Shown here piece after piece: positions 2,204-62,184 of a DNA stretch of 64,000 nt. The notes below the pieces were generated by a model, which saw only the letters and a list, made by a program, of their open reading frames with translations, did no database searches and was not told where the DNA came from. The position numbers were made by a program, and so were the translations under genes. The DNA is from Tetradesmus obliquus (taxonomy: Eukaryota; Chlorophyta; Chlorophyceae; Sphaeropleales; Scenedesmaceae): assembly GCA_030272155.1 (NCBI GenBank), contig CP126199.1:806001-870000 (forward strand), read 5' to 3'. Position 1 is the stretch's first letter. Each line of letters opens with the position of its first letter.

Positions 2204-2909
2204 CAGCATCAACGTAGTGGGCAGTGAAGTCAATGCAAACCCTGGTGCCCTTGCAGGCGCCCCATGCTGATACAATGCCACAAACATAACCCTGCCTGCC
2301 ACAAACAGCAGCGTATATGCAGGCACCAATACTAGCCACTGGGGAGGTGCCAGTGCTGCAAAGGCGCCATGCACCAGGGCCGCAAGCACGGTCTGCTCCA
2401 GTGTGTTTTGCAGCATGGCTTGCATCAGCTTGATCTGTGGAGTTGGGTTGGTGGAGAGGCCAGCACCCATGATGTCTGGTGGAGGGTGGGGGAGGTGTGG
2501 AAGCAGGGAGTGCGGAGAACAGCAGCAGGTCAGCAAGTGCCCAGGCGCACGCAGCAGCAGCATGCACTTGTGTATGCGAGAAAAGAAATGAAGTGCGAGC
2601 CGGCTGTTTCAGTGTTGTGGAGAGGCCGGCACCCATGATGTCTGGTGGGGTCGGGGAGGCGTAAAAATTAGGGTGTGGGGATGAGCAGCAAGTAGGCAGG
2701 CAGGCAGGTACAGCACTAGGGGCGGGTTCAGGATACTTGTGCACGTGCAATGTGCATTCACTGTGTGGTTAGGTCCTTTTACTTTTGAAGTGTGCTGCGT
2801 GAAATTCCAAAGGCATAGTGCAAAGAGTGGATGGCAGGCTGCTGCTGCTGCAGCTGCTGCTGCTGCAGCTGCTGCTGCTGCTGCTGCTGCTGCAGCTGCT
2901 GCTGCTGCA

Positions 2910-2941
<32 letters not shown>

Positions 2942-3763
2942 CAGCAGTGCTGCTGGGTGACGCACCTGTGGGTGAGGAGAAGCGGTAGTTGCCGATGCGC
3001 CAGATGTGCCACCACAGGCACGCTGCAGGGCAGCCGGGGGAATACAGAGATCTGTCAGCTATACCCTGCAGCTGGATGGACCTGAAAGGTTTACTTTTGT
3101 TCTGCTGGAGCTGCTGAGATATAGCAGCACAGTGATGTCACGCTGGCAGAGGCTGTTGACAGTTGTACTGAGGTTGGTGTGCACAGCATGGGGCTGCATG
3201 CAACGCCGAGGCTTTGCAGAGAGGATGTGTCGGTGCAATTGACTTCAATCTGCCATGTTGATGAATATATACCCTGCAGCTGGATGGACCTTCTGCTGGT
3301 GCTGCTGAGATACAGCATCACAGTGATGTCTCGCTGGCACAAGCTGTTAACATTTGACAGAGGATAGTTACATGTGGTTCCTGGCACCATCTGGCATGGC
3401 ATGCAGATGCAGCAGCTGTACTGTTCGCGCAGCGCAGCGTCAACGCAGCATCAACCATCTCTGTACGAGCGCGCATGTCATTTGACCATGCTCACCTGCT
3501 TTGGGAGCATTCCATTTCAGCCATAACATCAACCTGTCCTTCGGCTCATACGCGGCCTGCTGCGTAAGACAATAGGCAGTAACTCCGAGCAGCACTGCTG
3601 CTGCTACTGCAACACCACGCACCACGCCGAACTGTTCCCTGCTGATAACCATCTTTTGGTACAATGTAATGGTATGTCGCATGAAAGCGTATGGATCAAG
3701 ATTTGCGTAGCGTCTCACATCGGGAGCCGTGGCCAGCTCAGCAGCTGCAGCTAGGGTTGTCAT
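2165..3763 (-). CDS. MAPEG-family membrane protein
   Basis: Two exons: 3496-3763 (ATG at 3763) and 2165-2475. They join in phase 1 and encode 192 aa. Exon 1 has a SREQ..V.RG motif followed by a membrane segment and a YEPKDRL motif. Exon 2 has the MAPEG signature NTLEQ, then hydrophobic helices and R.P.GFALTSLPT near the C terminus. MAPEG proteins (membrane-associated proteins in eicosanoid and glutathione metabolism) are four-helix membrane proteins; this looks like the bacterial/plant-type branch of unknown substrate. The N-terminal 35 residues may be a targeting extension, or a later Met may be the start. The 1,020-base intron holds a CTG run and two internal duplications, one of them of the exon 2 acceptor. 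Confidence 0.8.
2452..2676 (-). repeat. Duplicated acceptor of MAPEG exon 2
   Basis: A block at 2452-2510 spanning the exon 2 acceptor (exon starts at 2475) recurs at 2618-2676 inside the intron. On the minus strand both copies read CCAGACATCATGGGTGC, so the decoy keeps an intact AG acceptor. Confidence 0.8.
2841..2945 (+). repeat. (CTG)n tract in MAPEG intron
   Basis: About 100 bases of CTG with a few CAG interruptions. It lies in the intron and reads CAG on the gene's sense strand. The poly-Ala, poly-Gln and poly-Cys frames it opens are not coding. Confidence 0.9.
3053..3352. repeat. Two-copy direct repeat in MAPEG intron
   Basis: A roughly 95-base segment at 3060-3157 recurs at 3266-3352. 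It includes ataccctgcagctggatgga and the later cacagtgatgtcWcgctggc. It is not obviously derived from an exon. Confidence 0.8.
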
Positions 3764-4506
3764 GTGCTGGGTTTTCCGCACCTATGCTGCCCTAAACCAA
3801 GGTCGGTGCCGGAACGGCAGGCACAAGCTGTTATAGGCTATCAATTAGTGTCAGGTAGTTGCCGGATCGTGCTGGGCGCACCTTGAACAATCGAATGTGT
3901 CCGCAACAGAAACCTTGGTCGCTCAAGCGGAGCTCTGCAACAGGCGCTGCTCCTTAGCAAATATTGCAACTGGAGATAGGCTTTTGAACGTTACCAACAA
4001 TTGTCACGTCCCCAATCACCATCACCAGCAGCACACCAGCAGCACACCAGCACCGGCAGCAACACCCCATACGGGCCATGCATGGCGTTTATCAGTAAGC
4101 CATAGAGCAACCTGTGCATCACGTGCAACAGTGAAGTGCATTGATCCAATTCCTGATACCACGCCGGCAGCAGGAGCCAACAATCTTTCAAAGGTCCTCC
4201 GCAGATCTGTAGCCTTAAGATGATTGTGCCAGCATTGACAAGGCGACCATGCAACGCGCCGCCACGCAGCGCCGCGCTGTTTGCACAGCCATCACCAGCA
4301 GCACACCAACAACTGCAGCAACACCCCATACGGGGTCAAGCTGCTGCAGCCGCACATACAGCTCGCCTACCTGCTGCTGCAGCGCTGCAGCTCTAAGCCA
4401 AGGCCCTCAGCCAGCCCCAGCCTTCACACCACAACAGCCTTGCCCCAGGCCACTGCCCAAGCCTCCTTCAACTGCTGCTTCTCACTTTGATGCTACTGCT
4501 ATGTTT
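3764..4506. other. Intergenic region with a decayed copy of the RabGGTase-alpha last exon
   Basis: No intact gene. Bases 4334-4440 read on the minus strand as a decayed copy of the neighbouring gene's final exon (LQQQVGELYVRLQQL, compared with LQQQVQELYVRLQQL in the gene). A short duplication (4020-4075 and 4290-4335, each with acaccccatacggg) also lies here. Confidence 0.65.
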
Positions 4507-7330
4507 TCAAATGGTTCCCAGCGCCTGCACCACCACAAACGCCTTGCCGGCAGCTGCATCCGCATAGTACCCTGCCCGCAGCGGGTCTAGCTGCTGCAGC
4601 CGCACATACAGCTCCTGCACCTGCTGCTGCAGGTCTGACGAATCCAACCCCAGGCCCTCAGCCAGCCCCAGCCTTGCTTGGGCCTCCTTGAGGCGTGCTG
4701 TCATCAGCAGCGGCCACTTTGCATCAGGGTCGACTGCCAGGTGCTCAGCAAACCGTGACACCTCGCGCGCCAGCACCTGCAGCACAGCGCGGTACGCGGG
4801 AGCAGAGAGCAAAGCGTGCTTGGCACGTTGCAGAATGCCTAATGACTCCATTTGCTAAAACATCGCATTGTGGCATGGCGCTAGCAGTTGTTGTTGCAGA
4901 ACAGCACAAAAAAAAACATGCATACACCTGAGCAATCTGCCACAGGGCTTGCCCATGGACGCAGCTAATGTTGCTGCAGCAGCAGCTGCTGCCGCTGCTG
5001 CTGCCGCTGCTGCTGCCGCTGCTGCTGTCACTGCTGCCTATGGTTGTGCTGGCGCTTCCCACAACAAACCTTCTCACCTCTCCCAGCACCACCCTGGCCT
5101 CCTCCAGCTGCTGCTCACCGCCCTGCTGCTGCTGCTGCCCACCCTGCTGCTGCTGCTGCGCCTGGCTGAGGTGTGCCAGGCTGTTGCCCAGCAGCCACCT
5201 GTAGTAGATCCAGGGGCTCTGGTCGGCAGAGTCCGTGGCAAACGCCTGCAGCACAAAGCAAGGCACGGCAGTGAAGATCTGCAGCTGCACAGTAACATGC
5301 ACGTGCATGTGACAACAAGAGTGGCAGTGCACCTGCACGACTGCTGCCTATGGCTGCCTGCTGTGGTGTACATGCACAACCTCCATGCATGCGCAACAAG
5401 ATGTTGCAGAGTGAACCGCACATCCAAACACTATGCTTGCTGTGCACAGCGAACATCCTGCTGCTGTCCTCTGTCACATAACTGTTATAACTATTATCAC
5501 AAGCTGTCATGCCCGGCGCGGCCCACCTGGTGCACCATCTCATACTCCTGCTCAAGCACATGCAGCGGGATGGGCCGCGACTGCGAGGCTGTGCCAGTGA
5601 AGCAGCCAGTGGCACGCAGTGCCACAGCAGCAGCCTGTTGGCTGCTGTCATCTGCTGCTGCAGAGTCGCTTGCTGCTGTGGTGCTGCTGGCTTGCTGCTG
5701 CTGCTTCTGTTCACTGGCTGACGCCATGAGCTCATCAAAGGAGACTGCAAGACAGTACACGCACGGGCGTCAGCGATGTGCTGACATTGCGGAAGCAGCA
5801 CAAAGTGAAACTGTGCACTTCAGAAACGCTGTGGCAGCACAGCACAGTGAAGCACAAGTATCACACAAACGGCATTGCTGTCGAGGCTACACACACGCAT
5901 GCAGATACACAGCTCCATGGTACACACCTGTGGCTATGTCTTCGTTGTACAGCCGCGGCAGCAGCATGGTTCGGTAGTGCCACGCAGAGTAGTTTGAAAA
6001 GTCTGCGGCAATCAAGCTGCTGGTGTAACTCAGCTCCTCCTCTGCGTGAACCCCCATGAGCTTCACCACGAACTGCCGGTAGTTCCAGGCGTGAAAGTTA
6101 CGCCCATCCAGCGCCAGCGCACTGCACGTTGGCATTGCGCAAGGAAAAAGGCAGGGCAAGGTGGAGGTGAGTCAGCTGCAGGCCTGGTCGCCACGCTTAC
6201 ATCAGCGTCAGCGGCTGTGCTGCGAACAGCTGTTGCAGCACCAAGACAGAATGCATCAACAAGTGCACGGCCTGCTGCTGCATGCAACGGACCTAGGTGC
6301 TGGTTGCAACCATGCAGGCGTGCTGAACCCTTATCTGCGATACCACTGCACCACGCACCTGCCCACCAGCTTGAGCTCCTTGGCCAGGTCAGCCAGCCCT
6401 TGCGCCACCATGAGCATGCCTAAACCCAAACCAAAAGCATCAACCTCCTCAGCCTGCCACGCACCTGCCCACCAGCTTGAGCTCTTTGATCAAGTCAGCC
6501 AGCCCCTGCGCCACCACCCACTTCCTGTGGTGCCAGGTGGAGTAGGACTTGGGGTTTTCCTGCAAGCAGGCCTGCGTCAGCGCCAGCTCAGCGGCACAGG
6601 CAGCTGCTGCAGCCTCGCCGCCAGCAGCAAAGATGGGCTGCAGGGCCTCGCGGCGATAGTTCCAGATGGTGTAGATCTGCTTGCCGATAAGGGTGTTGAA
6701 GACATACAAGGACGAAATGGTAGTTCTGAGTTTGGGTGTGTGGGGGCAAGGGATGGCTGGCTGCAAGCAGTCGAGGACTGCAGGGAGGTTGCAGTTGCAC
6801 CAGGCTTGGTTGCACAGCTATTCTATGCACATCAGACCACGTTGTCCATTGCATACACCGAGCAGCAACGGTTCAAGGCGGACTTACTGTGCAGATATTG
6901 ACAGTATGCACACGTTTAAACAGTGTGCGGGCGCGTACGCACTGCTTGCAGCAACCTTCTTACCAGTGCGGCGAAGTGCAGGGTTTGGTATGATTAACCG
7001 CTTGCAGCTGCTCCTGCAGGTTGTGCTCACCTCTGGTACAACCTTCAGCATCTTCTCGGATGCTGTGAGTGCTGCCTGATCATATCTGTGCTGGCGCCTG
7101 CACTCCAGTACTAGGGTGGTGCCCTGCTTGATTGCTGCTACCTGCAGCAGCGGTAGCAGCAGCAGTACATCACAACAGCATGCATCGCATTAGACGGCTC
7201 TCAAAGTGATGTACGACTTTGTTGAAAACGATCTGCGTCTGCTGCGATGCTGACGTGCCTTCTTAGCGTATGCCTCTGCTGCTTTCGGGTCCTTCAGCTT
7301 GTTTTTGTACTCCCGCGGGCGTCCGTGCAT
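4507..7330 (-). CDS. RABGGTA: Rab geranylgeranyltransferase alpha subunit
   Basis: Seven exons join in phase with no internal stop: 7215-7330, 7031-7085, 6465-6676, 5928-6121, 5527-5744, 5078-5245, 4507-4854 (436 aa). The protein opens with MHGRPREYKNKLKDP, typical of the family. It carries the protein prenyltransferase alpha repeats: WNYRR at 62-66, WHHR at about 105-108, then FHAWNYRQFV, YSAWHYR and PWIYYRWLLG. The C terminus holds KWPLL and the LDPLRAGYY segment. With the beta subunit and Rab escort protein it would add geranylgeranyl groups to C-terminal cysteines of Rab GTPases in the cytosol. A Gln/Ser/Ala insert sits in exon 5 before the EYE.VHQ motif. The exon 3 donor and the last exon have duplicated copies nearby. 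Confidence 0.95.
6352..6519 (-). repeat. Duplicated donor end of RABGGTA exon 3
   Basis: The last 55 nt of exon 3 with its donor (6458-6519) recurs at 6352-6412 in the following intron. The copy keeps the GTGCGT donor and differs by a few substitutions. Confidence 0.85.
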
Positions 7331-8261: not shown

Positions 8262-8296
<35 letters not shown>

Positions 8297-8477: not shown

Positions 8478-10885
8478 ATGACCGCTACTTGCTGCCAGTC
8501 TGCGGCTGGTGATGTGCGGACGACCCTGCGCAGCACAATGTGGAAAGTACAAGAAACTTTGTGAACTGGCAAAAACGACATCAGCAACACACATCGATCC
8601 ACCGCAAAGCAAGCCAATGTGCTGACGTCCCATGACAGCATTCAGCAGCCAGCATTGTTTGAGGCCTGCAAATGTCTTGTGTCCTTCTGCACAACCAGCT
8701 GAATGCATGCACGACAAACCAGGGCAGCTACGAGCAGCCTCATTGATGCCATTGCCTTGACCTGCATTGAGCAGCCTCATTGATGCTGTTGCTTTGGCCT
8801 GCATTTACTTCTTGATGTTCAGCACACAGATAATGTGCCTCACCTGTCGTGCGGCAGGTTGTCTAGCACCTCCATCATCAGCACAAACACATGCTGCTGC
8901 AGGCTGTGCTGCTGCGGCAGCGCCACCGCCACGTCACCCCAGGCCCCAGCTGCTGCTGCATCGCCCTGCACGCTGCGCCATGCCTGCGCATGGCCTCGCT
9001 GCTGCACGATGAGCTGCTGCTGCTGCGCTGCCAGGTTGGGGCTGATCTCTATCGTGGTGTAGCGCATGCAGCTGTAAGTGACGGGCTCCTGCTCTGCTAT
9101 GTAGTCCTGCAAGTGCAGCAGCAGCAGCGGGTGCAGGTGCAGGAAGGCGAGCAGGTAAGCTGCCACTGCTGGAGCGGCAAGGGCACACCTGCCATGCAAC
9201 TGTTCTACTAGTAGTACGTGGTGATGAGAGTGCGTAGCACCTGAACACCCAGCAAGTTAAGTTCAACCACAGCAGCTGTGGACCAGCACACTGCAGAGCA
9301 TCACTGCATAGCAGCACTGCAAGCAGTGGCGCTCCTGCGAGCACCGCTCAACAGCACGCTCGCAGCAAGGGTGTCGGTGCCTCCCCCGACCTCCACAATG
9401 GCCAGCAAAGACGAGCTGCCATGCATGCAATGCAGAGTTCCATTATGTCAACAACAGCTAAACAGCTCTAAATGAAGCAAACCCAAAGGACTTGACCGCC
9501 TGCCTGCACTCCTGTTACAACAGCTGCAGACCAGACCCTGCAGGAGAGAGCAGTCCTGCAAGCAGCACCCCTGTAAGCCGCCCTTACCAGCACGCTCGCG
9601 GCAAGGGTGCCAGTGCCGCCCCCAACTTCCACAATGGCAAGTGGCTGGCTGCTGCCTCCCTGCAGGGTGTGCTTGCGGCACTCCAGCATGTAGTGGGCCA
9701 GGGCCCTGCCATACCACGGCGCAAACACCTCCACCGGAGTGAGCCAGTCAACCTGCGGCAGCAGCAGCAATTGAAAAGCAGTTGTATCATGTGGTTTCAC
9801 GAGCACTTGCGTGTTGTGCCTCGTTGCTTCTGGTGCTGCTTGGCTGCCGCTGCGCAAGCAGGGTGGCAGTGAAACACAACGGATGCAGCTGCAACAACAC
9901 GAGGCAGCGCTGCAAATGTACGCAGCCCACCGCCTGGAGCTGCTGTTCAACGGGCGCCGCGTTGCTTTTTAGTGGCATGGCAGATGCAGGTGCGGCTTCA
10001 GCCCTGCTGAGCAGTCTCGCCTGCAGCTGCGCGGTACACCGCTGTGCCAGCACTGCCTTGTACTCTGACTGGTTGTATAGATGCGCTGGCATGGCAGGCA
10101 CTACGAAGCACATCAGTTGCAACACATCACAAATCCTATGTCAACAACAACCAAGCTATCATCACCTGCAGCTGCTTGTACAGCTCTGCCAGCACTGCCT
10201 TGTACTCTGCTTGGTTGAGCAGCCGGTTGAACTGGATGGGCTGCGGCAGCCGGCTGAGCGGCGCCTGTGGCTTGTTGAAGTAGCCCTGGAACTGAGTTTG
10301 ACAACATGAAACACCCCCAAATCACAACATGAAACATGATTTGGGTGTGTTTCAGCTCCAGGTCAGGCATAGGGGCGGCAGCAGCAGGTGTAGCAGGATA
10401 CTGGCGTGCATGCAGAGTGCCGGCAACACAACAAGCTGCTGGCTGCGGTGCCATGACGTAATCTAGGGTGGTATGATGCAGTTGCTCTCAAGAGTGTGCA
10501 TGGCTGCCATGCTGTGCTACATGCCACCAGGATTGCCATGCATGGTGGCAGCTGGATGCCTTGCCTTGCCAACACAGCCATGGCCAAATTGCATGACGCC
10601 ACGCTGTTCAACACCCTACAGCTGCTTTCAACTTGCAGTAACACCACAATTGTAAAGTTGGCACACGTGTATCGTGCAGCTTATTGCCAGCACATGGATG
10701 ACAGCTGCTGCACTCACTGGGTGGTACAGGCTCTGCTGTATGAAGTCCCTGTACAACAAGGCTGCCCCTGCTGCTGTTGAGCTGCTGCTGAGCCGCGTGA
10801 ACAGCACATTGGTGCTGCAAAGCGGCCGCTGTTGAGGACTGATAGCGCGGCCAACTCGCAGCAAGAGTTGGCCCGCAGCCCTCAT
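7640..10885 (-). CDS. MidA/NDUFAF7-type SAM-dependent methyltransferase
   Basis: Five exons in phase: 10718-10885, 10166-10291, 9588-9752, 8844-9106, 7640-8525 (535 aa). The N terminus (MRAAGQLLLRVGRAIS) is Arg-rich and lacks acidic residues, like a mitochondrial presequence. Family hallmarks follow: YRDFIQQSLYHP then GYFNKP across the first junction, WLTPVEVFAPWYGRALA, the SAM-binding loop EVGGGTGTLA (about residues 139-149), YTTIEIS, and EVLDNLPHD at the end of exon 4. The long last exon has a poly-Gln run from CAG repeats, Ser/Asn runs, and a C-terminal block with VLVPWGAADIFFPTDFDSL. NDUFAF7 methylates an arginine of a complex I subunit; whether this divergent plant/algal branch does the same is inference. 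Confidence 0.85.
9345..9640 (-). repeat. Duplicated donor end of methyltransferase exon 3
   Basis: The 3' end of exon 3 (9588-9640, coding for the SAM-binding glycine loop) recurs at about 9345-9405 in the next intron. The copy reads EVGGGTDTLA, and its donor GTAAGG has become GTTGAG, so it is probably inert. Confidence 0.85.
10028..10220 (-). repeat. Duplicated end of methyltransferase exon 2
   Basis: Exon 2 near 10166-10220 (NQAEYKAVLAELY) recurs at 10028-10082 in intron 2 as NQSEYKAVLAQRC. Direct joining of exons 2 and 3 gives the family sequence in phase 0, so the copy is not needed. Confidence 0.8.
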
Positions 10886-12192: not shown

Positions 12193-14217
12193 TCAAACCA
12201 TGGTGTCAATAAGGCTCGCGCGCATCTCATTCACAATCGCACTCGGCTGCGCGTCCCTGAGCTTGAACACCGACTCTATCACGCTCATCTCCGTGCTGGT
12301 GGTGTCCAGGCCGCAGAAGGCTGTCCAGTCATTGACCACCAGCCCAGCCCCGATGACGTCACTGCCGCGGTTGACCGTGCCTGCCACCAGCGGCACCTGG
12401 CAGGATGGCAAATGAGAGGTGGCAGCAGCAGCGCAGAATGCGTTCATTGGTGGACCACCAGCCGCAGTGGCGGCGGCAAGTACTGGCATGAAACTACTGG
12501 CTGCAGTTGGGCTCGACAAGCCACATGCAGCGTTGCTCCCTTTCATGCGCATATCAAACTGCACGTTGCCCAACGAGGTTTACAAGCCCCACAACCCTTA
12601 CCACAGCAGGATGACAAGGCCGCCAGCTCAACACACACAACCGCAAAACCCTAAAACCCTTACTCATCCCAAATCCTCAACACCCCGCACCTGCAGCAGC
12701 GAGCTGAGCTCGTCCAGGTCCTCGATGCTGGTCTTGGGGTGCACCAGGCCGCCCTGGTTGCTGAAGGCGCAGTAGCTGCCCACCAGCACGTTGCCAGCCA
12801 CAGTCTGCCGGAACACGTCCACGCCCAGCACGTCCTGCAGCGCCAGCAGAAACAGGTTTTAGTGCACTTCCGTGCCGGGGCAGCCACGGTCTGGATGGAT
12901 GTGCGGGTGGATGGCAGCACTGTAGCCGTTGCACACGATAACATTGTCTGGAGCAGACAGCAGCTCATCAGCGCGCTGCACCACCACCTCATGTCGCATG
13001 CTAACCGACAGCGACAGCCACAGCCACAGCCACAACCGCAACACCCCTGCTATCGCCCCACACACATGTGTCAGTAGCCGCCTTGCAAGTCCCACAAATA
13101 CCGTTGTAACAACCATCCTCTCTGCAATCCCACCTGCACGATTTCCTCTGTCTCCTTGTCAATGTCCGGGTGGATCAGCGCGACGTAATCGTTGCACGCG
13201 ATGACATTGCCAAGCGCAGACAGCCTCTCATCGATGCGCTGCACCACCACCTCGTCAGGCAGGCTGTTGCGGATGTGCTGCAGCTCCTGGTCGGTGGTGC
13301 TGTTGGGAACCAGCAGGCCGTTCTTGTTGCCCACAGTCATGCGGCCCACTAGGCGCGTGCCTGCAGGAAGATCCAACGAGGTGGCGGCAGTAGCAGCAGC
13401 AGATATGAGAGGCCAGCCAAGGAGGTTGCTGGTGGACAGATGGCAAGTGTTACGAGAATTACCCTACTGCAAGAGAAGCATGCGCGGTTCACCGATGAGT
13501 GTCAGGATGCCGACGCTGCTCAGCTATCAGCAGCTCAGACCTGCTGCTGCCAGTGCCCCGCTGATTCTGTACCACCTTCCCACACCACCCCGCTCTCCTG
13601 CTGCCTTGGCAAGCTGCACCAACTGTGTCCTTCCCGTGTGCCCACCCCACCTGATATGCTGGTCTTGATGACTGGGATGTGGTCTGCCAGCTCAGACTCA
13701 AACACGCTGTAGAAGTTCTCTGCTCCGCCCAGGGCGATCAGCGCGTACGCGTTTGTGAGCTGCGCAAACACGCCTACATCGTTGCTGTTCTCAAACTGCG
13801 GCAGCCAGCAAGGTGGTCCAGGGGCAGCGCAGCAATGGTCGTAACCAAAAAGCTGTGCGTTTTGCAGACAGTTGATCGAGTACTGTTACAATGATACCTC
13901 AAGCCGGCTGCTTCCACTCCCTGCTGCAATGATCAGGCTGCATTGCTTCAGGCATATGCTCAGCCAAGCCTGTTCAAAACTGCTGCTGCCAACACATCAA
14001 CATTTGGTTGTACTTTATTCTGGACCGCTGTAAAAACTGTCGAGTTGACTGCAAGTTCTCCATGCACACTGCTGCTGCTGCTGCTGCCGCTGCAGTGCCA
14101 GGACAGCTGGCTTGCGAGTGCACAGCTGGAAAGCCTACAAGTAAACTACCAGCATATTTTCATTTTCCATGCAGCCAATGATAACGCTCGAATGCTCACC
14201 TGGCAGCGGGTGGCCAT
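12193..14217 (-). CDS. EIF6: Translation initiation factor eIF6
   Basis: Five exons: 14200-14217 (six codons, MATRCQ), 13651-13795, 13134-13360, 12691-12834, 12193-12396. They join in phase to give 245 aa, the same length as human eIF6. Conserved blocks: [93 protein letters not shown] and the C-terminal [16 protein letters not shown]. eIF6 binds the 60S subunit, acts in its nucleolar maturation, and stops premature 40S-60S joining until released by the SBDS/EFL1 pair. Intron 3 contains a decayed partial copy of exon 3. Confidence 0.97.
12862..12995 (-). pseudogene. Decayed partial copy of eIF6 exon 3 inside intron 3
   Basis: The minus strand reads [19 protein letters not shown], recognisably the eIF6 segment [19 protein letters not shown] that ends at 13134. 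It lies in the intron directly downstream. Several non-conservative changes suggest an old, non-functional copy. Confidence 0.85.
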
Positions 14218-15274
14218 GGTGTCTAGCCTATGACCTGCTGCTCAGTCACGTACAGCTGCAGCCTTAGCGGCCCCTTGTCTGCGGTTTTTCCAATCAATAC
14301 ACGTTCAGTCGTTCAACTCTATGAAGCCACGTGCAGCAGCAGGCGTCGATGTATATCTCTGATAAGCTGCGCAGGCTGCGAACACGAAACGGTGTTGATG
14401 CGCGACAAAGCTGGGTGGGCAGGCTAACTAAACGCAGACATATATATCGACTTCACGACACAACGATCGGTTGCCCTGGAGGAAGGTCAGTGTCACAAAT
14501 GCATGTTAGCAGCAGCCACGCTGTCTTTTGCTTGAACCCTTCCACAAAACGCGTCAACTTTCATCCAAAGGCAGAACATGGTAAGTTTGAACTATCAAGC
14601 AGCATAGCAGGGCAGCTGGGCGTGAGCTGCGGCAAACCAGCTGCATGCTCTGTACTGCCTGTGCAGTACGTGCAGGCTGCCATGCACTGCACTCCTCTAC
14701 TGCACTCCTCTACTGGCACCCTTCGCAACAGCACAGCTTGTTGCGGCTGCAAAACACACAGTGTGCAACATAGAGACATTCTCACAGTATCCCCACAGGC
14801 AGCAGCCTCCTCAGGTGCCACCAGGCCATGCCGCACCAGGACTCCTTGAGGTCTATTCTAATCACAGTGCCAAGGACCGGTCAAGGTTGCTTTTTTCTCT
14901 GCCCAATGAGCCTGTCATTGGCTCCCCAACGGGCGAGGTTACTCTTGTAACTTCCAAAATGTGGCATGCAAGGTATGACACTTTGCCGGTAATCATGTGC
15001 TGCCGCCCTGATGACAGCCCCAATACGTCTCATTATATCTTCCCTGGTTACAGACGCCAAGCGCATCGTGCGCCTCCAATCACAGCGGGTTGCCAGCGCA
15101 CAGCCCCCGCACCATACCCAGCCTCCTCATGCGCCACCACGCCATGCCGCACCAAAAGGTCGTACTAGACACAGCGGGATGCAAGCTTGAGCTGTGAACG
15201 CTTTGCTGAGAACTCTGCGTATTCTGTGCTTAGACACTATGTGGATCACTTATCACCGGCAGCACGCCGCAAAG
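14218..15274. other. Intergenic region with two decayed copies of the Nudix last exon
   Basis: Upstream of eIF6 (promoter side) and downstream of the Nudix stop. Bases 15085-15170 and 14793-14845 on the minus strand carry versions of the Nudix terminal exon (VRHGVVAHEEAGY and MRHGLVAPEEA, compared with VRHGLVAPEEAGY in the gene). The rest shows no recognised feature. Confidence 0.7.
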
Positions 15275-15475
15275 TTAAAGCGGGTCACCAGCGCGCAGCC
15301 CCCACACCATCCTGAAGTACCCTGCCTCCTCAGGAGCCACCAGGCCATGCCGCACCAAAAAGTCGATGATGACGAGGCAGCAGTTGGGCTTGTACTCGGT
15401 GCTGCTGCTGATGGTGGCTGCAACCTTTTCAAGGTCCCGCAGCATGAACTCCTCAACCTGCAGACGGGAATGGAT

Positions 15476-15524: not shown

Positions 15525-17894
15525 ATTGGCTCCCGTGCTGTAATTTGATATGCATGTAATGTTCTGAACTGCGCATCAAGATGGCACTCGATGCACCAGT
15601 GGGGCGCAGTTTTCTGCAGGGCTTGTTGACACGGTCAGCAGCAGCGGAAACTCAAGCCACTCCAGCAAAAAGACAGGCCTCCTATGAGCAGAGAAAACTG
15701 GGGGCAAAGAGCAGTATCTGCTTTGCCCCGTCATATCAAGGTCCACAGCAACACTATGCTGAGTGCAGTCCACCTGCAGGCATGCAGAGCAGCCCTGCAG
15801 GTGCACGTCAGAAGTCAGACAAGCCCAATACCCTGTCTCATCAACGCACATGGACAACATCTACCTCCACATGCGACTTTGCACAATCAAGCAAACCCTA
15901 GCCACACACCAACCTGTCAACCCACCTGGCCATCCTGCGGCTCAGGTAACGCGCGCAAACAAGTCCCACCACAAAGACCCTGAAGAAGCCACAGCCCCGA
16001 TTCCCTACACCCACCTCGCCGTCCTGCGGCTGCGGCACAAAGTCCTCCGGCAGCTGCAGGTCGTAACATAATAACACGTCAGGCTTCAGGCCTTCTTCGC
16101 TCATGCTCACGTAGCTCACAAAGCCCACGGGCGCTGCTGCTGCTGCCAGCTCTGCTGGAATGCCTGCCTCCTCCCAGCACTCCTTCGCCACGTTGGCTGC
16201 GCAGCTCAGGCCGTACGGCTGCGGTCCAACGCGCAAAACACAGAACAAAGAGTGTGTGTGATGAAGTGGGCGTGGGACATGTGCAAGGCTGCTGAGGCAT
16301 GTTGCTTAGACAATGTTCGCTCATGCACAGCAGTGGTGCAGCATAAGTAACATGAGAGAGCGGTGCGTTTTGCCTGCTGTTACAGTTTGGAGTTGCATTT
16401 ACAGCAAGCGAACTGCCAAGCTTTCGCTGCTGCTCTGTCTTCTTTTTCTGTTGGCACCGCAGTGCTGAGCAGCCAGCAGTGTTGCAGCACAACATCTGGC
16501 TCCCAAGTTGCAGGTGCATTTTGCTGCTCCTACCTGCCCTCCAGCCACGATGTGGTCCAGCTTGCCAGGCCACGTCTGCTTGCTTTTGCTGCGCCGCGCC
16601 ACCCACAGCTTCTTGCTGCCGTCTGCCGCTACAACATAGCCGTTCACATGCACACCATACGCACGTATGCCAAAGAAAGGCGCTGCTGCGCGCTCCAGCA
16701 GTAGGGCTGGGGGTGAGTCGAATGCTGCGCTGACTGGGTACAGCTCATCTCGCCAGCCTTTGAACATGCCCTGCGGTGTAGTGCAATAGGGGTGCAGGTG
16801 AGTGCTTGTGCAGGGCAACATTAGGCCAAATGCTCAGAAAAGGGCAAGGCAGAGGTGCGCTGCCACACGTACGCAAGTGAGTCGAAGGCTGCGCTGACTG
16901 GGTACAGCTCATTGCGCCAGCCTGTGAACATGCCCGGCAGCGCAGTGCAATGCGGGTGCAGTGGGTGGCCCAAGCTAAGTGCATCTTCAACGCTGCGCTG
17001 CTGCTGCTGCTGCTGCGGCTGCTGATGTGGCTCCTGCAGTGCCGGTGCTGCTGCAACCTTGGAACAGCATGAGCACAACCTGCACGGGTGCTGGCAAAGG
17101 CTGCAGCTTCCAACAGAGTGCGCCACAATCACCATCCATGACCTCATAGCCATGCCCACCTGCTCTTTCCGAAGTATGTCCAGCACGCCAGCCACTGCGT
17201 CACTGCGCTGCTGCATCGTCGCATGTTCAGCTGCGAGTGTGAGCGTCTGCTGGCCGCTGCTGCCTGCTGCTTGCTGCTGCTGCTGCTGCAGCACAAACAC
17301 TGATGGGAACTGCAGCAGTTTCTGCATGAAGCTGGATGCAGAGCGGTTTGACAGTGTATCGCCACATCAGCAGGCAGCAGAGATAGCTGTTGTCAGCTAG
17401 CAGTACTGAAGGATGAGGTTACCTTGCGTGGATGCCACTACCACTGTACTGGAAAGATGCTTCAAATGCTGCTGGCAGACTTGCGCACGACCAGTGCTGC
17501 TGCATTCAAAATTGTGCATCTGATACAATGCCCATGTGTGCTTCTTGCTCCAAGCTGCAAACGGTGATTGTTCACAGTGATGTAGCTAGGCAGCAACAGA
17601 CGTGAGCAGACATACAGCAACCGCTCACTCTTGCTTGAGGTATCCCAGCCGCTGCCCATCGACCTGAAACGGCACCAGCTGGCCAGCTGTCAAGTCTTCA
17701 AGCCCATTGTTGACTTCTGCTATTCTTTGCAGGAAGCCTGGTATGAGGCCAGTCAGGGGCTGCATGACAGTAGCACGCTTTGATGCAGAAGCAGTAGCAA
17801 CGGCACTGGAGCACCTGGCACGGCTAGTGCCGCGTGCGCTGCGGGACAGCACACTCCTTGAGCAGCTGCGAATGCTTCTAGCAGCTGTATGCAT
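15275..17894 (-). CDS. Nudix hydrolase, NUDT20/24-like (DUF4743 type)
   Basis: Five exons in phase: 17629-17894, 17160-17331, 16534-16770, 16015-16218, 15275-15457 (353 aa). The first 50 residues are basic and Ser/Ala-rich, like an organelle transit peptide. Then come the family-specific N-terminal domain (VPFQVDGQRLGYL, GWRDELYPVSAAFD), ERAA..FFGIRAYGVHVNGY, LWVARRSKSKQTWPGKLD, VAGGQ, the Nudix core KECWEEAGIP with the catalytic Glu pair, and the C-terminal VEEFMLRDLEKV and IIDFLVRHGL. The plant relatives hydrolyse nucleoside-diphosphate-linked or damaged thiamine-type substrates in plastids; substrate here is inferred. The exon 2 poly-Gln comes from CAG repeats. The exon 3 acceptor, exon 4 donor and last exon have nearby duplicates. 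Confidence 0.9.
16727..16960 (-). repeat. Duplicated acceptor and start of Nudix exon 3
   Basis: The exon 3 start with its upstream intron (about 16727-16800) recurs at 16884-16960. The copy reads GMFTGWRNELYPVSAAFDS, but the acceptor CAG has become CCG, so splicing to it should fail. A smaller duplicate of the exon 4 donor lies at 15917-15945 (original 16008-16040). Confidence 0.85.
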
Positions 17895-18320: not shown

Positions 18321-20808
18321 ATGTTTCGTGCCATACGCACTTCTAGCAAGCATAAATGCAGTAGCACTGTTTCAGCTAGCCGCTTGCGCATTCCTGTCGC
18401 TTGCAGGACAGCTCTCACTCCTGCAGCGCCGACAACAGCAACAGGCATAGTACCAGCTACGCTGAACGATATGGAAGACAGAGAATATCAGCGAGAGCTT
18501 ATTGAGCTTGTGAAGGGGAGCAATGTGAGCTCGCAAAGCAGGCCTAGAAAGGAGCAGCAGGGCAGCAGCTGGTGCAGCATGCCCCAACGCCTGCTGGCTG
18601 TTGCCCGCACTGTCTGTGCGGATGCACCATGATCCCTGACATAAAAAATTTCTGTATTTGCACTGTCCAGGCGCTCATCGTGCTGCCAACAGGTGCGTTG
18701 TGCTGAGGCAGTGCAGCATTGGCACCTCGGAACTTGGCACGGATAAGCAATACACACTGCGGCATGTGCTATGCTGCATTCTCTATTTTTGAAAACTTGG
18801 TAATACATTTGTCTGAACATTGTCTGTCTTGTGGCGTCCCTGCTGTGGGTTCCGACTCCTGCGTTGGGCGCAGCGTGAAGTCAACTCAGCGTTGATTGGT
18901 GGCATGTTTGAGCTCCGCTGTGACCTTCACCGTGTTTGCTTTAGAATAAGTTAAGTCAGATATGCAAGCATGTGAATGAATCTGCTGCCATCAGGGCGTG
19001 CTGGGACTCCTTACCGGGCCGGTGCCGTCACAGTGTCTGACAGTGAGGGGTGTGAAACAGCATCCAAGTTACGCTGCACGGGATACCGCTCGTGCTGCAG
19101 ACCCGTCACCAAACCATTGTGCTGTTGTGCTTTTTTGCGCCTCTGTGTGCCGCTGCAATGCAGGCTCTGGCAAAACACACATCGCTGCGCGCGTGATTCA
19201 GCAGCAGCACCTGCCTGCTGCTGCTGCGGCCAAGGCAGCCGGCAGTGTCAAGGCCATCGTGTTTTTGGCGCCCACCAACCCATTGGTGGCGCAGGTGTGT
19301 ATGTAACTGGGTCAGGGCATGGTTTTACCTGTGACGCTGTTTGGTTGCGGTGTGTCTCGTGTATTGCTAACGGGTGCCCCAATGTCGGCCGGCCCCTTCG
19401 TGCCTGCCTGGCTATGGTTCTGCCTGCGCACCAGTTTCTGCTCAACTGCTCGTATGCTGGTTGCTGTGTCACTGCTGCCTCACTGCTGCCCTCTGCTGCG
19501 CTGCTGCAGCAATGCACCGTGCTGAGAGATGGGTACGGCATGGCGGCACGCGCCTACCACGGGGACGGCAGCCAGAAGGACATCAGCAGCTGGAGCGCTG
19601 ACATGTGCGCAAATATCAGCAGCAAGCAATTGTGGTGCTTCGACATTGTGTGCAGAGCTCAGACAGTTCAAGCATGTCATGACGTGCCGCAATGCCGCAT
19701 AATCGTGCCATGATGCAACATCATGAAAGCTTGTGGCATTGCACTGGAGGCTTGCACAGCAGCCGCTGCCCTAGCCAGCACACTCAAATCTAAATTTGTC
19801 TGAACATGAATCAGATGCTGCTACTATCAATGCTCACCCAACACTGCTGCAAGTTCTGCTGCTGCGGCGGCTGCTGTGTAATCCGTAATGTGCTGCAGCT
19901 GGGCACGAGAGGTGGCTGCTGCTGACGTGATGGTGATGACGCCAGACGTGCTGCTGCACCTGCTGGCACACGGCTCAATAACGGTGCGGATGTCAAGCTA
20001 GCATGCAGATGTGCCTGCACTATAGCCTTACATGAATAGCATTCCGTATCCCAGGTTGCTGCTGCGCTGCTGCACCTGCTGGCACACGGCTCCATCATGG
20101 TGAGCTGGCTCTTGTGCCTTTGCATTGACATGTTTGGCGTGCTGCTGCACCTGCTGGCGCGCGGCTCCGTAATTGTGCAGTGGCAACCGCTAGCATGCAG
20201 AACGACTAGGAGAGTACAGCTCCAAATCAATAACAGTGCATGCTTAAATTTGCTGCTCTGCTGCTGCACCTGCTGGAGCGTGGCTTCACATTGTTTTTAT
20301 GGCAGCAATGCTTGCTGCATGGCACTTCAGCTGCCAGTGACACATTCACTCTAGTACAGCCCTGTATCTAACACTGCAGGTATAAGTTGGATGTGTGCCT
20401 GGTGCTGGTATGCGGCCTGCTGCAGATGCACAACGTCAGCCTGCTAGTGTTTGACGAGGCGCACCATCGCAACAGTGATCTTGTCTTCCTGCTGCTGCTG
20501 CTGCTGCTGCTGCTCTGCTGCTGCTGCTGCGAGTGTTGCTGCTGCAGATGCGCAACACCAGCCTGCTAGTGTTTAATGAGGTGCACCACTTCAACAGCGA
20601 TCTTGACTTTCTGCTTGTGCTTCTGCTGCTGCTGCTGCAGATGCACAGCAATAGTCTGCTAGTGTTTGATATGGCGCACCACTGCAACAGCGATCTCGAC
20701 TTCCTGCTTCTGCTGCTTCTGCTGCTCTGCTGCTGCTGCTGCAGATGCGCAGCATCAACCTGCCAGTGTTTGACGAGGCGCACCACTGCAACAGCGACCC
20801 TGACTTTC

Positions 20809-20859
<51 letters not shown>

Positions 20860-20925
20860 AGATGCGCAGCATCAGCCTCCTGGTGTTTGACGAGGCGCAC
20901 CACTGCAACAGCGGTCTTGACTTTC

Positions 20926-20958
<33 letters not shown>

Positions 20959-28439: not shown

Positions 28440-28543
28440 CGCCGCGGTGTGGCGGCGCTGCGGGCGGGGTACTACGCGGATGCAGCGGCAGGCAAGGCTT
28501 TTGTGGTGGTGCAAGCACTGGGCACTGTCTGAGCAACGCAGCC

Positions 28544-28578
<35 letters not shown>

Positions 28579-51603: not shown

Positions 51604-52999
51604 GCAGCAGCAGCAGCAGCAGCGGCAGCAGCAGCAGCAACGCGCCAAAACACACAGCCTCAGCATACACAAAAACACCACAAAACTAAAGCACGGGCAC
51701 AGATAGGGTTATGGACTGATCAGGATGCAACTGCTGCTGCAGCTGCCCTGCACCTGTTCTTGCATCAAGCCAAGTTTTGCTTTATCCCCTCCGTTGCTAG
51801 TGCAGCATATCATCAACCACGGCCTGCTGCCATCAACAGCTGCGCTCACCTGCAGGACAGCGCCTCCGCATACGCGTATGAAGCAGCCTCGCCGGATGCA
51901 GCCATCCGCTGCATCTCAGCAGCCAGCCGCCGCTGCCGCGCCTGCGTCTTGCGCGCCATGGCCTGCACTGCGCCCACCATGGCCTCTGCACGGCTGGTGA
52001 CGCCCTGGTGCAGGATGAGAGCTGTGTACAGGTGGCTCTCGCTGCCGCGCGCAAAGATCTGTTGGGGCGGAGGTGGGGGGAAGGGCGGCAGCATAAGGGA
52101 TGTTAAGAAAATTGCAGACTTGCAAAATAAACAAGTGCAGGATGAGCGCCGTGTACAGGTGGCTCTCACTGCCGCGCGCAAAGATCTATCAAGGAAAGGG
52201 GCAGCAGCAGCACAAAGGTAGCGCATAACAGGTTCAAAACTTGGCAGCCTTGCATATGCACATGTATAAAAGCTGCTGGCCAACTGCACAGTCGGCCAAC
52301 TGCGGGAAGTTTGGCTCCTCAGCAGCAGCAACTGGCCTAACCCCTGCTACTCACCCCTGCTACTCACCCTCAGCAACGCCACACAGTTGGCCAGCTTACC
52401 CAAAGCAGGCTCCTCTGCCCAGCACCTCCTCCATCTGCTAAGCCAGGTCATATGCAGCATGGCACACATGCACCAGGCAACAGCTGTAACAGCAGAGTGT
52501 CCAGCAGCCATTGCATTGGCAGCTATCAATGCCAGGCACGCCCGCAACATGGATAGGCAGCAGCAGCAGCACTCACCCTCAGCAGCGCCACACAGTTGGC
52601 CAGCTATCCAAGTCAGGCTCTTCAGCCAGCACCTCCTCCATGCCAGGCCAGGTCACATGCGGCATGGCATTTTATGCACCAGGCCGTAACAGCAAACAGC
52701 CCAGCCGCCGTTGCAGTGGCAACTTTAGAACTCTACAGCTAAACCACACCCATGCAAATCAAGCACGCCGGCAGCGCGGCTAGGCAGCAGCAGCAGCAGC
52801 AGCACTCACCCTCAGAAGCGCTACACAGTTGGCCAGTTTGTCCAGGTCAGGCTCCTCAGCCAGCACCTCCTCCATCTGCCAGGCCAGGTCGTACGCAGCA
52901 TATGCGCCACAAAGCACTGCCAGCTGGTCTTCACGATCAGGCAGGTGCTGTGCCAGCGCAGCATCCACCTCCTCAATGTCAGCAGCAACCTCAGCCTGT

Positions 53000-53068: not shown

Positions 53069-54643
53069 TGCATGTGGGTAAATGCAGGGTACTGGCTGTT
53101 GTCGAACACATATTCATGCAACGTGCTGACACCTCAATCCCAGTGCAACCTCCAGGCCCCAAGCCCACCTTTAGCTCAGCCAGCAGCTCTGCTGTGTCCT
53201 CAGGATCTGTTGCCTCTCCCCCCTCCAGTGCTGCCTGCACTAAAACCCAAAGCCCCAGCCCACACATGCCAGACCCCAAACCCCAAAACCTTAAGTCCAC
53301 ACCTGCAGCTCTGCCAGCAGCTCTGCTGTCTCCTCAGGATCTGTTTCCTCCGCCCCCTCAAGTCCTGCCTTCCCTAAACCCAAAGCCACAGCCCACACAT
53401 ACCGAACCCCAAACCCCAAAACCCCAGGCCCACCTGCAGCTCTGCCAGCAGCTCTGCTGTCTCCTCAGGATCTGCTACTTCCGCCCCCGCCAGTGCTGCC
53501 TGCACTAAAACCCAATGCCCCAGCCCGCACACACCAAACCCCCAAACCCCACAACCCCAGGCCCACCTGCAGCTCAGCCAGCAGCTCTGCTGTCTCCTCA
53601 AAATGTGGTTCCTCTGTCCCCTCCAGTGCTGCATGCACTAAAACTCAATGCCCCGTGACAGACAAACCAACTCCCCACCCCAAACCCCCCAGTCCACACC
53701 TGTAGCTCAGCCAGCAGCTCTGCCGTCTCCTCAGGATCTGTTTCTTCCGCCCCCTCAAGCGCTGCCTGCAGCCGCTGCGGCCACTCGCCATCTGCAGCAG
53801 CATGCAGCGCCTGAAGCTGCTGGGCTGTTTCTTGAGGCAGAGTGGCCTCAAGGCTGCACCTGCTGCAGCGGCAGGGCCGGCCAAAGAGCTCCTCGTGCGC
53901 TGCCTGCCTGGCTGCCAGCGGGGCGGCAATCACACTGCAGCACAGCAAGGGCAGAGAGAGGCACGGGTGAGGCGTTAGGTGGTGGTGCGCACCGCATGAA
54001 GTTGACTGCCGCAGCTGCGAGGTGGAGCAGAGCAATGGCAACAAAGCAAGCTACGGTGCAAAACCAGCCTGCCTTGTCGAGTTACCCTCTGCTGTGCTCT
54101 TCCCTTACAGATGCACGCAAGCCACAGAACGGCTCCTGTCGCCAAGCACGTGTACACCACCTCACCACCGCAGCTTGCTGGATGCGCCGCCCCTCACCTT
54201 CCGCTGCTTGCTTCCCCTCTGCACACAAGTCACCCACCCGCTGCTTTTACCTGCTACGTCATGCAATGCAGGCGGCCACCTGCGCCTCTTTCCTACATGA
54301 ACAATAATGCCAGCTGCAGCCCTCACCTGCCCAGCTTGTTGAAGGTGACCTCAGTGCCAGGGTCCAGGTCTGCTGTCGCATGCAGCAGCATATGCTTGCC
54401 CACCACCACCACGCTGCTGTTGGGGGCGCAGCTGTGCCTCAGCAGCGCCAGCTCAGGCCACACCCCAATAAAACCTTGGGGGCGCTCGTGGCGTACCTGC
54501 AACAGCAGCAGCAGCAGCAGCGGCAGCAGCAAAGTCAGCAGCTGTGCCGCAGCAGCGCCAGCTCGGGCCACACACCAATGAAGCCTTGGGGGCGCTCGTG
54601 GCGCACCTGTGAAGAAAAGAACGAAAAGTGGCGGCAGCAGCGT

Positions 54644-54701: not shown

Positions 54702-55188
54702 GGCTCGGCAGGTTGCGGCAGGGGCGGTCATGTGACAGCTCCAGGGGTCCAAACATAGGGGACACTGCTGCTGGCTGGCCACAAACCATCGGCTGGCTGA
54801 ACTCAAACGATCTGCTAACAGCCTTAACAACTCCATAACAACCGCGTAACAATAACTCAACACTAGTCAACAGCAGCAACCCCTCACCTGGGCAGCTGCT
54901 GGGTCTTGGAACTCCTCGCTCCAGCAAGAGGAGTGCACATCCCGCCAGCACTGCAAGCAACGCACAAAAATCATGCCATCACACCCAGCAACCAACCTCT
55001 CACCTGCGCAGCTGCTGGGTCCTGGAACTCCTCACTCCAGCAAGAGGCCTGCAGCAGCCGCATCAGCTGCTTGCTGCCGACCTTCTTGGCAGCCAGCCCG
55101 CCAGCGCCCTGCTGCACCTGGCCCCAAAAGGCCGGCTGCAGGTGCATCATGCTGGGCGGGAGCTCCTGAGCATTCGGATCCACCTGCA

Positions 55189-57530: not shown

Positions 57531-57830
57531 AACACCGCCGCGACAGGTGATGGCTGGAGTTTGCTCTATGTTTGAGAAGCGTTGATGTACAGCATTTGCG
57601 CAAGGCAAACCAACCTCACTTGCACCGCACTGCTATGTTAGCCACTGACCAGCACGCTGACAGCACCTCCTACAACAGCAGCAACAAGCTATTCCTGCAG
57701 GCTGCTGCATGGCAGCAAAGGCAGCTGCTCATTAGAATGAATTTGCTGGGTTCAGCACATGCGTTCCACACACGCTGTGCTGACCGAGACACCAGAATCC
57801 ACGCTCAAACTACAACAACGTCGGAACTCT

Positions 57831-58649: not shown

Positions 58650-58685
<36 letters not shown>

Positions 58686-59919: not shown

Positions 59920-59953
<34 letters not shown>

Positions 59954-62184
59954 GGCACCCCTCACCTGTGTAGGCCACGGGCGCGCCCAGCCCTCCATTG
60001 CTCAGCTCCACAAAGCGGTAGGGCGACTGCGCCTCATGGTGCTGCTCGGTCTGCCAGATCTGCAAGGAAAATGTGACATGAGGCGACACAAACGTTGGAC
60101 AGCACTTCATGATGCCAGTTGACGGCATTACGCAGGAGCTGCTGGAGCAAGTTTGCATGCTGCTTCAGGTTCTACGGCTGCTTTCACACTCATAGAGCTG
60201 GCGCTGCAGACTGGTGCAGCCATGCACGGCCCGCTGAAGCAGACACAGCCCCACCAGCCCGAGCAGCTTGCACCGTCAGCTAGAGCCTCATCAGCGTGGC
60301 ACCGTGCAACACTGCCTCTACAACATGTCACAGCCAGGCCCGACACATGCTGCACAAGAGACAAACACCCAATCCATCAAGCTCTGCACCTTGAGCATCA
60401 GCAGCGCCGAGTCGTGTAGCACCGGCTCGCTGAGCAGCCGCTCCGGCTCAAACAGCCATGCACAACATGGTGAAGATACCAATGCATTCCTCAGCCAATG
60501 CTTGCTGCCACACCTTGAGCATCATCAGCGCAGCATCGTGTAGCACCGGCTCGCTAAGCAGCCGCTCCGGCTCAAACAGCCCCGGGGTGTGGGCGTAGTT
60601 GTGCAGCAGATTGATGAAGTAGGCGCCTGAGTCCAGCTCATACTTGCGCTCCGCAGTCCAGCCGCCCTTGCCTGCACATGTGTGAGGGAACCATGTCAGG
60701 TGAAAATTGCCCAACTGAGGAAGAAACATTTGAATTGAAAAGTGCAGGCCAGGCAGGGGTGGCAGGCTAACACATGACACACACTCTGCGGCACAGCACA
60801 ACACACTGTTGACTTTATACAGCCCTAGGGTGAAACTTGCTGGCCTCAACATCACGGAAAGTGCAACGAGCTGCTCCGCTGCTGCTGCTGCTGCTGCTGC
60901 TGCTACTGCTGCCAATTCCGCTGTTGATGGTTGCTGACATCTTGCTGCCAAGGTGATTCGGCCACCAAGGCAGCAGCGGCTCACCCCTCACTCGCTGTGA
61001 CTGCTTGAGCTTCGCTGCAGGCTTCCAATGCCGGTAGAAGGCATTGGCATCTGCAAATCCAACAACAGCAAGCAGCATTGAACACAGCAGCAGCAGCTGT
61101 GCCCCGCCATCAGCCGTCAAGCCGCCAAATCCAGGGGACAAGTGCAGAAGTAGGCATGTGCATTAAATGCAGCCTATTTGAAAGGCCAGTAGGTATGCCC
61201 ACTGCTGCTGCAACTGCTGTCACCCAGTTGCGTCCCAGTGTGGCTTACAGCTGCATGCCAGCTGCACATTTCACTGTGCTGCTCAGCGTCGCTCCCACTG
61301 CTGCTGCTGCTGCTCACATGGGTCGCTGAGTATGTAGTAGGCCTGCATCCTGATGGCTCCCTCTATGACCTTTTAATGGATGTATACACACAGGTGCAAG
61401 GCAGAATTGATTCGGCAGATCTGGGCAGATGTTGTGAGGGCGCATCCTGAAGCAGCTGTGCAAAGCTGTGCAACTTGTGAATGACAGTTGCCAGCATATT
61501 CAGGTACTGAGTGGCCCCTGGTGCAAGCAAACAGGAGCCACACACTGCTGATGTACCTATCCCGACAGGTCAAAAAAGCACCGTTTTGTGCAGCATTACA
61601 CCACTTGCTGGCACTTTCTCGACTCCGCCCACCTGCCGTAGCATTGGGTGTGTCCCCATACGTGGTAGATACACGGCCAGCTGCACTGCGCTGTCCCTGA
61701 CCCATTGGTCGTCAATATCTCCAGTGGCGACAAACACATGGCTGCCTGGCACCCCATGAACACTAACTGATGTAGCCATGCTGTGCCATAGGCAGCGGCC
61801 ACACAGCGCAGTCAACTCATCCAGCTCTGTTTGCGACAGCAGCTCCATCAAGCGTTTTGTATACGCTTCTGACCTGTCTCTAACTTGCCACCCCCTGGCC
61901 CATATTTCAACTGGGGCGGCAGAGCTGCCTGCTGCTGCTGGTGTGGTTGAGTTCAACTGCAGCTGTGCCATGACAGTGAGGGAGTACAGATGTACTGCGT
62001 CTGGCTCGAAGCTCCTGCCCTCGTGTGGCATAACAGTGAGCATGAGTGTGACGAAGCACACTGCGAGCGCGCCTGTTGCGATGAGTATGCAGTGTCGCTT
62101 GACCTTGGAGTACAGTAGCCTGGCCAGTAAGGTGGGTGAGCGAGCCCAGGTGCCACCTGAGCCCTGCATACTCCTCCCATTCAT
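57831..62184 (-). CDS. GH125 family exo-alpha-mannosidase, type II membrane protein
   Basis: Ten exons in phase: 61633-62184, 61318-61369, 60985-61050, 60514-60671, 59966-60059, 59627-59689, 59192-59364, 58833-58931, 58415-58642, 57831-58058 (570 aa). A short cytoplasmic tail with Arg/Lys is followed by a single membrane segment (about 32-51), as in Golgi type II enzymes. GH125 landmarks: TGDIDDQWVRDSA (154-166), VIEGAIRMQ, DPYANAF (formed across an exon junction), ERKYELDSGAYF, EQHHEAQSPYRF, AFRPSDDA, NMYAAGAL, FDDPNLPSLL, NTRRRILGSSNPY, GIGSPHTPP-like GLGSPHTPPQYVWP, GLMHES and FEWANALL. GH125 enzymes remove alpha-1,6-linked mannose; a role in trimming glycans in the secretory pathway is inference. 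Confidence 0.92.
58059..58200. repeat. About 30-bp tandem repeat in GH125 intron 9
   Basis: Four to five diverged units around aggttgcaggacagtgtg lie between 58059 and 58200, directly upstream of the exon 10 acceptor on the gene strand. Confidence 0.65.
60384..60585 (-). repeat. Duplicated donor end of GH125 exon 4
   Basis: The exon 4 end (60505-60585, ERLLSEPVLHDAALMMLK) recurs at 60384-60460. The sequence caccggctcgctRagcagcc is shared. The copy has lost the clean GTGTGG donor. Confidence 0.85.

Follow-up and report, generated by a model that had tools for sequence, protein, structure and literature searches.

Why should the introns of a green alga hold copies of the edges of their own exons? 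The question is raised by a window of 64,000 nucleotides from the genome of Tetradesmus obliquus (C9:806001-870000), for which a preliminary description had proposed that blocks spanning exon-intron junctions are copied beside the original in a series of genes, mostly in the flanking intron, and that introns grow in this way. In the current study these exon-edge duplications were found to be real, and the pattern is not confined to the window. All counts given here refer to one genome, of which about 300 kb (0.3% of 104.66 Mb) was covered, and to splice junctions predicted by a hidden Markov model (HMM).

Results

The window was analysed together with 24 readable 10-kb loci, 19 of which formed the first set while a further 50 kb was held out; locus L010 (all N) was left out, as was the part of the window at 34-47.5 kb (a repeat and reverse transcriptase array) before pairs were counted. 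A splice-aware HMM gene finder was trained on the window and the 19 loci and frozen for the held-out 50 kb, and it converged on the donor AG/GTGNGT and the acceptor TGCAG. The assembly consists of 17 contigs with 56% GC and a mean predicted intron of 426 bp (gene-model totals), which, together with its size, resembles the 107.7 Mbp, 57% GC and mean intron of 462 bp given for Tetradesmus obliquus in a published table (PMC5966456).

Pairs of copies were collected as non-redundant sets of blocks of 30-130 bp at a spacing of 60-700 bp, overlapping redundant pairs being removed. A block was considered pinned when one of its ends fell between -5 and +21 nt relative to a junction, counted towards the intron, which was the case for 76 of 150 pairs as against 27.2 after shifting (maximum 40 in 200 trials); in the held-out 50 kb, 15 of 21 pairs were pinned as against 5.1, a number reached by none of 1000 shifts. 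The gene finder has a known bias in that it labels some copies as exons, and a strict version of the test, which demands that the exon outreach the block by 25 bp, keeps out copies miscalled as mini-exons; it also removes blocks longer than their exon (70 pinned pairs versus 76 without that rule). The strict test pinned 75 of 171 pairs (21.3 when shifted, maximum 35 in 300), with corresponding values of 14/39 versus 4.8 for the window alone, 10/21 versus 2.7 (maximum 7) for the held-out sequence and 15/31 versus 3.9 for pairs of at least 94% identity. Copies thus exceed chance and centre on junctions, as had been claimed.

The same centring is visible in the coverage of splice sites flanked by an exon and an intron of at least 90 bp each. 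At donors (n = 195), coverage by repeats peaks in a zone made up of the final 60 bp of the exon and the initial 10 bp of the intron, drops to about 4-5% between 20 and 70 bp inside the intron and climbs back to approximately 10% beyond 100 bp, while at acceptors (n = 196) the peak occupies the exon's first 20-40 bp. Pinned blocks extend into the intron by a median of 6 nt, and the copy lies on the intron side at 69 of 83 pinned edges and on the exon side at 14, in agreement with the proposed location in flanking introns. Projected onto the gene models of the window and the first 19 loci, an intron-side copy accompanies 69 of 688 junctions (some of these being members of arrays themselves), and both sides of the intron are affected, with 40 donors and 29 acceptors; if upheld under RNA-based annotation, this would mean that about one splice junction in ten has a nearby self-duplicate. 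Within the window, 23 clusters remained after filtering, 16 of which touch a junction of the HMM model, and two more lie at Pfam-matched exons (SET, 54428/54538; the helicase array, 20417-21015), so that the total of 16-18 comes close to, and falls somewhat short of, the 'at least 20 cases' first reported.

The orientation of the copies is uniform. Self-matches within 2 kb numbered 343 direct and none inverted over the window and the 24 readable loci (303/0 for the window with 19 loci, 40/0 for the held-out 50 kb), which agrees with the claim that copies keep the orientation of the gene, although these matches include multi-copy arrays and are not independent events. The window alone contributed 85 direct and no inverted matches, and 10 of the 85 start in the repeat array at 34-47.5 kb. 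Inverted matches occur only at larger distances, namely ten in the window at approximately 24 kb, which represent extra copies of a RABGGTA exon, and one each in L018 and L025. Blocks have a median length of 62 bp (quartiles 49 and 93), and spacers between copies measured 20-102 bp in 61 pairs inspected for this feature. Spacings of 100-139 bp are the most frequent (64/223 pairs) and only 2/223 fall below 80 bp, and the copies therefore do not usually stand 'right next to' the original as had been stated. Pairs in noncoding DNA share this minimum (0/27 under 80 bp). The distribution is patchy, the richest locus having 47% of its bases covered, and repeat coverage follows intron density (rho 0.74), a correlation that is possibly partly circular.

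The graded decay that had been described was also found. Among donor copies GT is kept in 33/40 and replaced by GC in 6, one having neither, while 26/29 acceptor copies keep AG, so the statement that copies often keep these dinucleotides is correct as a count. The donor score at positions +3 to +6, many of which fall inside the aligned block, is 1.17 in copies, whereas real sites score 1.56 and any GT scores -1.30; the pyrimidine content before the AG is 0.62-0.63 in copies, 0.63 in their real partners, 0.59 in all predicted acceptors and 0.50 before random intronic AG. The signals of the copies are thus about as strong as those of their real partner sites, and slow neutral decay could also account for the retained GT and AG.

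Gaps in the exonic part break the reading frame in 24 of 27 cases, spread over 15 of 84 pairs, and no edge among the 83 pinned has the layout of a new intron; the suggestion that new exons arise as by-products is not borne out by these figures. Summed over seven Pfam-matched exons of the window, 29 of the differences to the copies are silent and 27 are replacing. Of the 433 differences counted in all 84 edge pairs, 273 fall at third codon positions, and the third-position share is mildly over-dispersed across pairs (P 0.03-0.05). In 38 partly overlapping groups with at least two copies, changes found in copies only are distributed 49/59/127 over the three codon positions and those found in the real exon only 10/2/46. 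The third-position excess may have several sources, namely older silent changes in the real exon, copies that are coding without having been recognised as such, and conversion.

Discussion

The best explanation of these data is, in our opinion, a recurrent duplication on the same strand that is tolerated across splice junctions, the copy then decaying within the intron, to which we assign a probability of roughly 0.58. The observed direct orientation, spacing, centring on junctions and mostly intron-side position of the copies fit a scheme in which short stretches of the genome would be duplicated repeatedly at short range, most commonly 100-140 bp apart. A duplication straddling a junction would be tolerated in that an intact exon edge, splice site included, remains joined to the body of the gene, while the surplus edge would be left in the intron and removed by splicing. 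The stranded copy would then drift, in some cases acquiring the frame-breaking gaps that are observed, and some copies have been duplicated again into the arrays seen in the alignments, the presumed outcome being longer introns that hold decaying look-alikes of donors and acceptors. Tandem duplication with subsequent decay is preferred because homology on the intron side continues beyond the splice signal in 17/40 donor copies (0.8 expected) and 16/29 acceptor copies (0.6 expected), i.e. 33 of 69 in total, and because in some arrays the inner copies repeat whole units of approximately 125 bp, with whole-unit homology seen for example in L016 (5391-6030). The proposal that introns gain length is supported, 9.7% of intron bases lying in such blocks.

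A number of observations weigh against this explanation. Similarity of the spacer to the matching flank was seen in 28 of 61 pairs, and of the 39 pairs that have a spacing of 80-150 bp and are at least 88% identical, 25 lack it (Z not above 3). The claim that the duplication is tandem is borne out for about half of the copies, those with intron-side homology. None of the five donor pairs of at least 94% identity retains intron homology, contrary to the prediction of plain tandem duplication; the five youngest donor-side pairs, which are 96-98% identical, stop 2-11 nt past the splice site, and in L015 (9129-9304, 98%) the similarity extends 2 nt beyond the donor and then gives way to unrelated sequence. 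At least 20 predicted exonic bases are present in 29 of 31 pairs of at least 94% identity, a proportion that may be inflated where the gene finder calls copies exons (the strict test pins 15/31), compared to 74-79% of older pairs; a simulation of uniform duplication yielded 27% edge pairs among tolerated events and 45% exon-containing pairs without selection (summed from its output), and the proportion among the youngest pairs exceeds both. The exonic part is free of gaps in 69/84 pairs, which makes hidden coding copies possible, and the third-position share is 58% in 51 pairs with intronic copies as against 39-43% expected for a neutral copy. No qualifying pair was found at 6 of the 24 sampled loci. 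Overall repeat coverage is similar throughout, with 9.7% for introns, 11.8% for exons and 14.9% for the small amount of sequence labelled intergenic; the special feature is the position at the junction.

The behaviour of the young pairs would be accounted for if the exon edge itself, i.e. tens of nucleotides of exon with 2-20 nt of intron, were copied into the nearby intron, for example by repair templated by nascent RNA or a displaced strand, the spacer then being original intron. The abrupt ends and undetectable intron homology of the five youngest donor pairs, the young pairs without spacer similarity and the surplus of exon-containing pairs among the youngest are all consistent with such copying, which we nevertheless regard as possible rather than probable, as intron-side homology is retained in nearly half of the copies, the L017 spacer resembles in part, at an offset, the sequence that follows the copy, and copied acceptors are rich in pyrimidines like real ones even upstream of the block (0.62 versus 0.50), a feature simply explained by duplication of the whole acceptor. 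A more far-reaching version, in which exon edge and splice site are the preferred unit in this lineage and are pasted into the adjacent intron some 100-140 bp away, probably by repair linked to transcription or splicing, as a major source of intron growth, is in our view doubtful. At the other extreme, duplication may be uniform and minisatellite-like, the junction signal then arising from selection, from constrained copies staying visible for longer and from bias of the gene finder. Repeats do occur in introns and intergenic DNA alike, noncoding pairs obey the same minimum spacing and coverage tracks intron density; the enrichment nonetheless persists under the strict test, in held-out sequence and in the pairs of at least 94% identity, and the exon-containing fraction is higher than the simulated range, which renders uniform duplication by itself improbable.

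It is likewise improbable that the copies are maintained by function, as competing splice sites, poison sites or alternative exon edges whose signal and adjacent exon would stay similar while spacers drift. The donor scores, the pyrimidine content equal to that of real partners and the third-position excess might be read in this manner, whereas the donors that have turned into GC or neither, the predominance of frame-breaking gaps and the near equality of silent and replacing differences speak against it. Even with recurrent same-strand duplication as the preferred explanation, some exon-edge bias beyond selection seems to be needed, as exon-containing pairs prevail even among the youngest; either exon edges are preferred as a source, or edge-only copying operates beside tandem duplication, or conversion refreshes the exonic part of old duplicates. 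If true, the exon-edge excess in the youngest copies would tie duplication to transcription, splicing or exon chromatin.

Other candidates were rejected. Three units consisting of an exon edge plus spacer were each single-copy in the genome, as judged by a DNA search that skips very common words, and a mobile element or introner family is dismissed for these three, to which extent the initial exclusion of transposons is supported; the helicase array matched four short stretches elsewhere in the genome and otherwise only itself. (CTG)n tracts do not appear to be the cause, given that pairs are not enriched near them (43/170 versus 55.6 expected). The pattern is not intron gain by AGGT duplication of the kind described in PMC3443670 and PMC4974935, since a donor and an acceptor at matching offsets were found at none of the 83 pinned edges. 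Coding constraint on the copies was discounted as well, for despite the third-position excess most gaps disrupt the frame.

Related processes are known from other systems. Tandem exon duplication and mutually exclusive exons likewise produce exon-derived intronic copies with splice signals; in the current case it is mostly exon edges and not whole exons that are copied, with gaps that mostly break the frame, although the arrays at 53157-53770 and 28.4-29.7 kb are possible whole-exon exceptions. Short tandem duplications of plants that arise from the repair of paired single-strand breaks resemble the present ones in direct orientation and in a size of tens to about a hundred base pairs, and we know of no report of a splice-junction bias among them. 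Introner elements could fill introns with related DNA. They are named in PMC4974935 and differ from the units described here, the three tested being single-copy genome-wide. Intron gain by tandem duplication, as in ATP2A1/ATP2A2 (PMC3443670, PMC4974935), has in common with our data a local same-strand duplication involving splice signals; here the intron pre-exists, no new one is seen (0/83 edges) and many junctions of one genome are hit. The potato RdRp gene, in which duplication across a single intron-exon boundary did create an intron, is the nearest published relative that was found (PMC4974935). Intron gain at staggered double-strand breaks in Daphnia (PMC3443670, PMC4202315) also shows direct repeats beside introns and filler-like sequence between copies, its repeats being short and located at both ends of the new intron, whereas a median of 62 bp on one side only is seen here. 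Among the titles and openings of abstracts listed in a literature search, which left preprints and most subscription journals outside its scope, nothing concerned exon-edge copies in Tetradesmus or Scenedesmus introns. If the pattern holds under RNA-based annotation, these copies would represent a dense and datable record of intron lengthening, a natural experiment on how spliceosomes pass over near-identical sites at a distance of about 100 bp, and a trap for gene prediction, the gene finder employed here having itself called some copies exons.

Loci of the window

The loci are listed in Table 1. Predicted exons gave Pfam matches above the cut-off for PPTA, eIF-6, DUF4743, ResIII, Helicase_C, SET and GH125, while Methyltransf_28, MFS_1 and one GH125 exon remained below it. 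Of ten exons tested initially, two had no match, including the single exon tested from the putative MAPEG gene. The gene names originally given are accordingly supported for RABGGTA, eIF-6, Nudix, the helicase, SET and GH125, less so for the MidA-type methyltransferase, and unconfirmed for MAPEG. No Rfam or tRNA features were found in the window, and a PDB search with one GH125 exon returned no match.

Table 1. Exon edges and their copies in the window (positions of the 64,000-nucleotide stretch)
Interval	Strand	Edge and copies	Pfam support
2451..2642	-	Putative MAPEG gene: acceptor edge 2451-2476, copy 2617-2642, 96%, intron-side homology retained	none
4333..4675	-	Last RABGGTA exon: segment 4583-4675, copy 4333-4424 beyond predicted stop, 85%	
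6351..6516	-	PPTA (RABGGTA) exon: 3' edge with donor 6457-6516, copy 6351-6410, 91.7%, 106 bp away	above cut-off
9310..9641	-	MidA-type methyltransferase exon: 3' edge 9549-9641, copy 9310-9405, 78%, alignment runs beyond donor	below cut-off
10017..10217	-	MidA-type methyltransferase gene (by gene model): donor edge 10162-10217, copy 10017-10075, 85%, former donor GC	
12899..13253	-	eIF-6 exon: segment 13162-13253, about 28 bp inside exon, intronic copy 12899-12990, 77-79%, gapped	
14803..15365	-	Nudix gene 3' region (by gene model): donor edge 15279-15365, copies 15084-15162 and 14803-14838	
16713..16961	-	Nudix gene (DUF4743 exon): acceptor edge 16713-16797, copy 16877-16961 upstream in gene, 88%, intron-side homology retained	
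19950..20177	+	Helicase gene (by gene model): donor edge and two copies, 86-92%	
20417..21015	+	DEAH helicase exon start (from 20965): edge in six copies in total, (CTG)n tracts between	
23112..23927	+	Helicase gene: acceptor edge 23495-23557, copies upstream; donor edge 23706-23811, copy 23824-23927	
24607..25154	+	Short predicted exon surrounded by copies and a 40-bp x6 minisatellite	
26099..26593	+	Helicase_C exon: edge 26099-26184, copies 26278-26341 and 26508-26593, 81-88%	
52008..52187	-	SET-gene region: acceptor edge 52008-52060, copy 52135-52187, 94.3%, unit single-copy in genome	
53157..53770	-	SET-gene region: array, 133-bp x4.6, each unit an exon-like and an intron-like half	
54428..54606	-	SET exon start: 54428-54496, copy 54538-54606 with its own pyrimidine tract and AG	Pfam match
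54877..55053	-	Donor edge 54993-55053, copy 54877-54937, 90%	
60387..60581	-	GH125 exon: donor edge 60511-60581, copy 60387-60457, 93%	this exon below cut-off, two other GH125 exons above

The SET pair at 54428/54538 differs at six positions, all of which are silent when read by eye. The array at 53157-53770 was read by the gene finder as 66-bp exons (one of 45 bp) with introns of 65-88 bp. The extra copies of the last RABGGTA exon form an array at 28456-29777 (+), on the strand opposite to the RABGGTA gene at 4.5-8.4 kb, and 25 of the 30 differences in four pairs of this array fall at third codon positions, as if several copies had been coding. The (CTG)n tracts of at least five units occur just before predicted acceptors in a gene-sense orientation, with 28 CTG and 0 CAG tracts within 40 nt in the window and the sampled introns. 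At 34900-46600 the window carries a tandem array with units of approximately 1.2 kb and 3.85 kb that are mostly 99-100% identical, and an open frame inside it (38691-41612) encodes a reverse transcriptase domain (RVT_1, E 4e-30). A short open stretch at 32037-32264 (-) matches bacterial Ig/cadherin-like domains (Big_9, E 1e-7), and L014 (1-2832) contains a direct duplication of 1.38 kb with 98% identity, which is far larger than the exon-edge copies.

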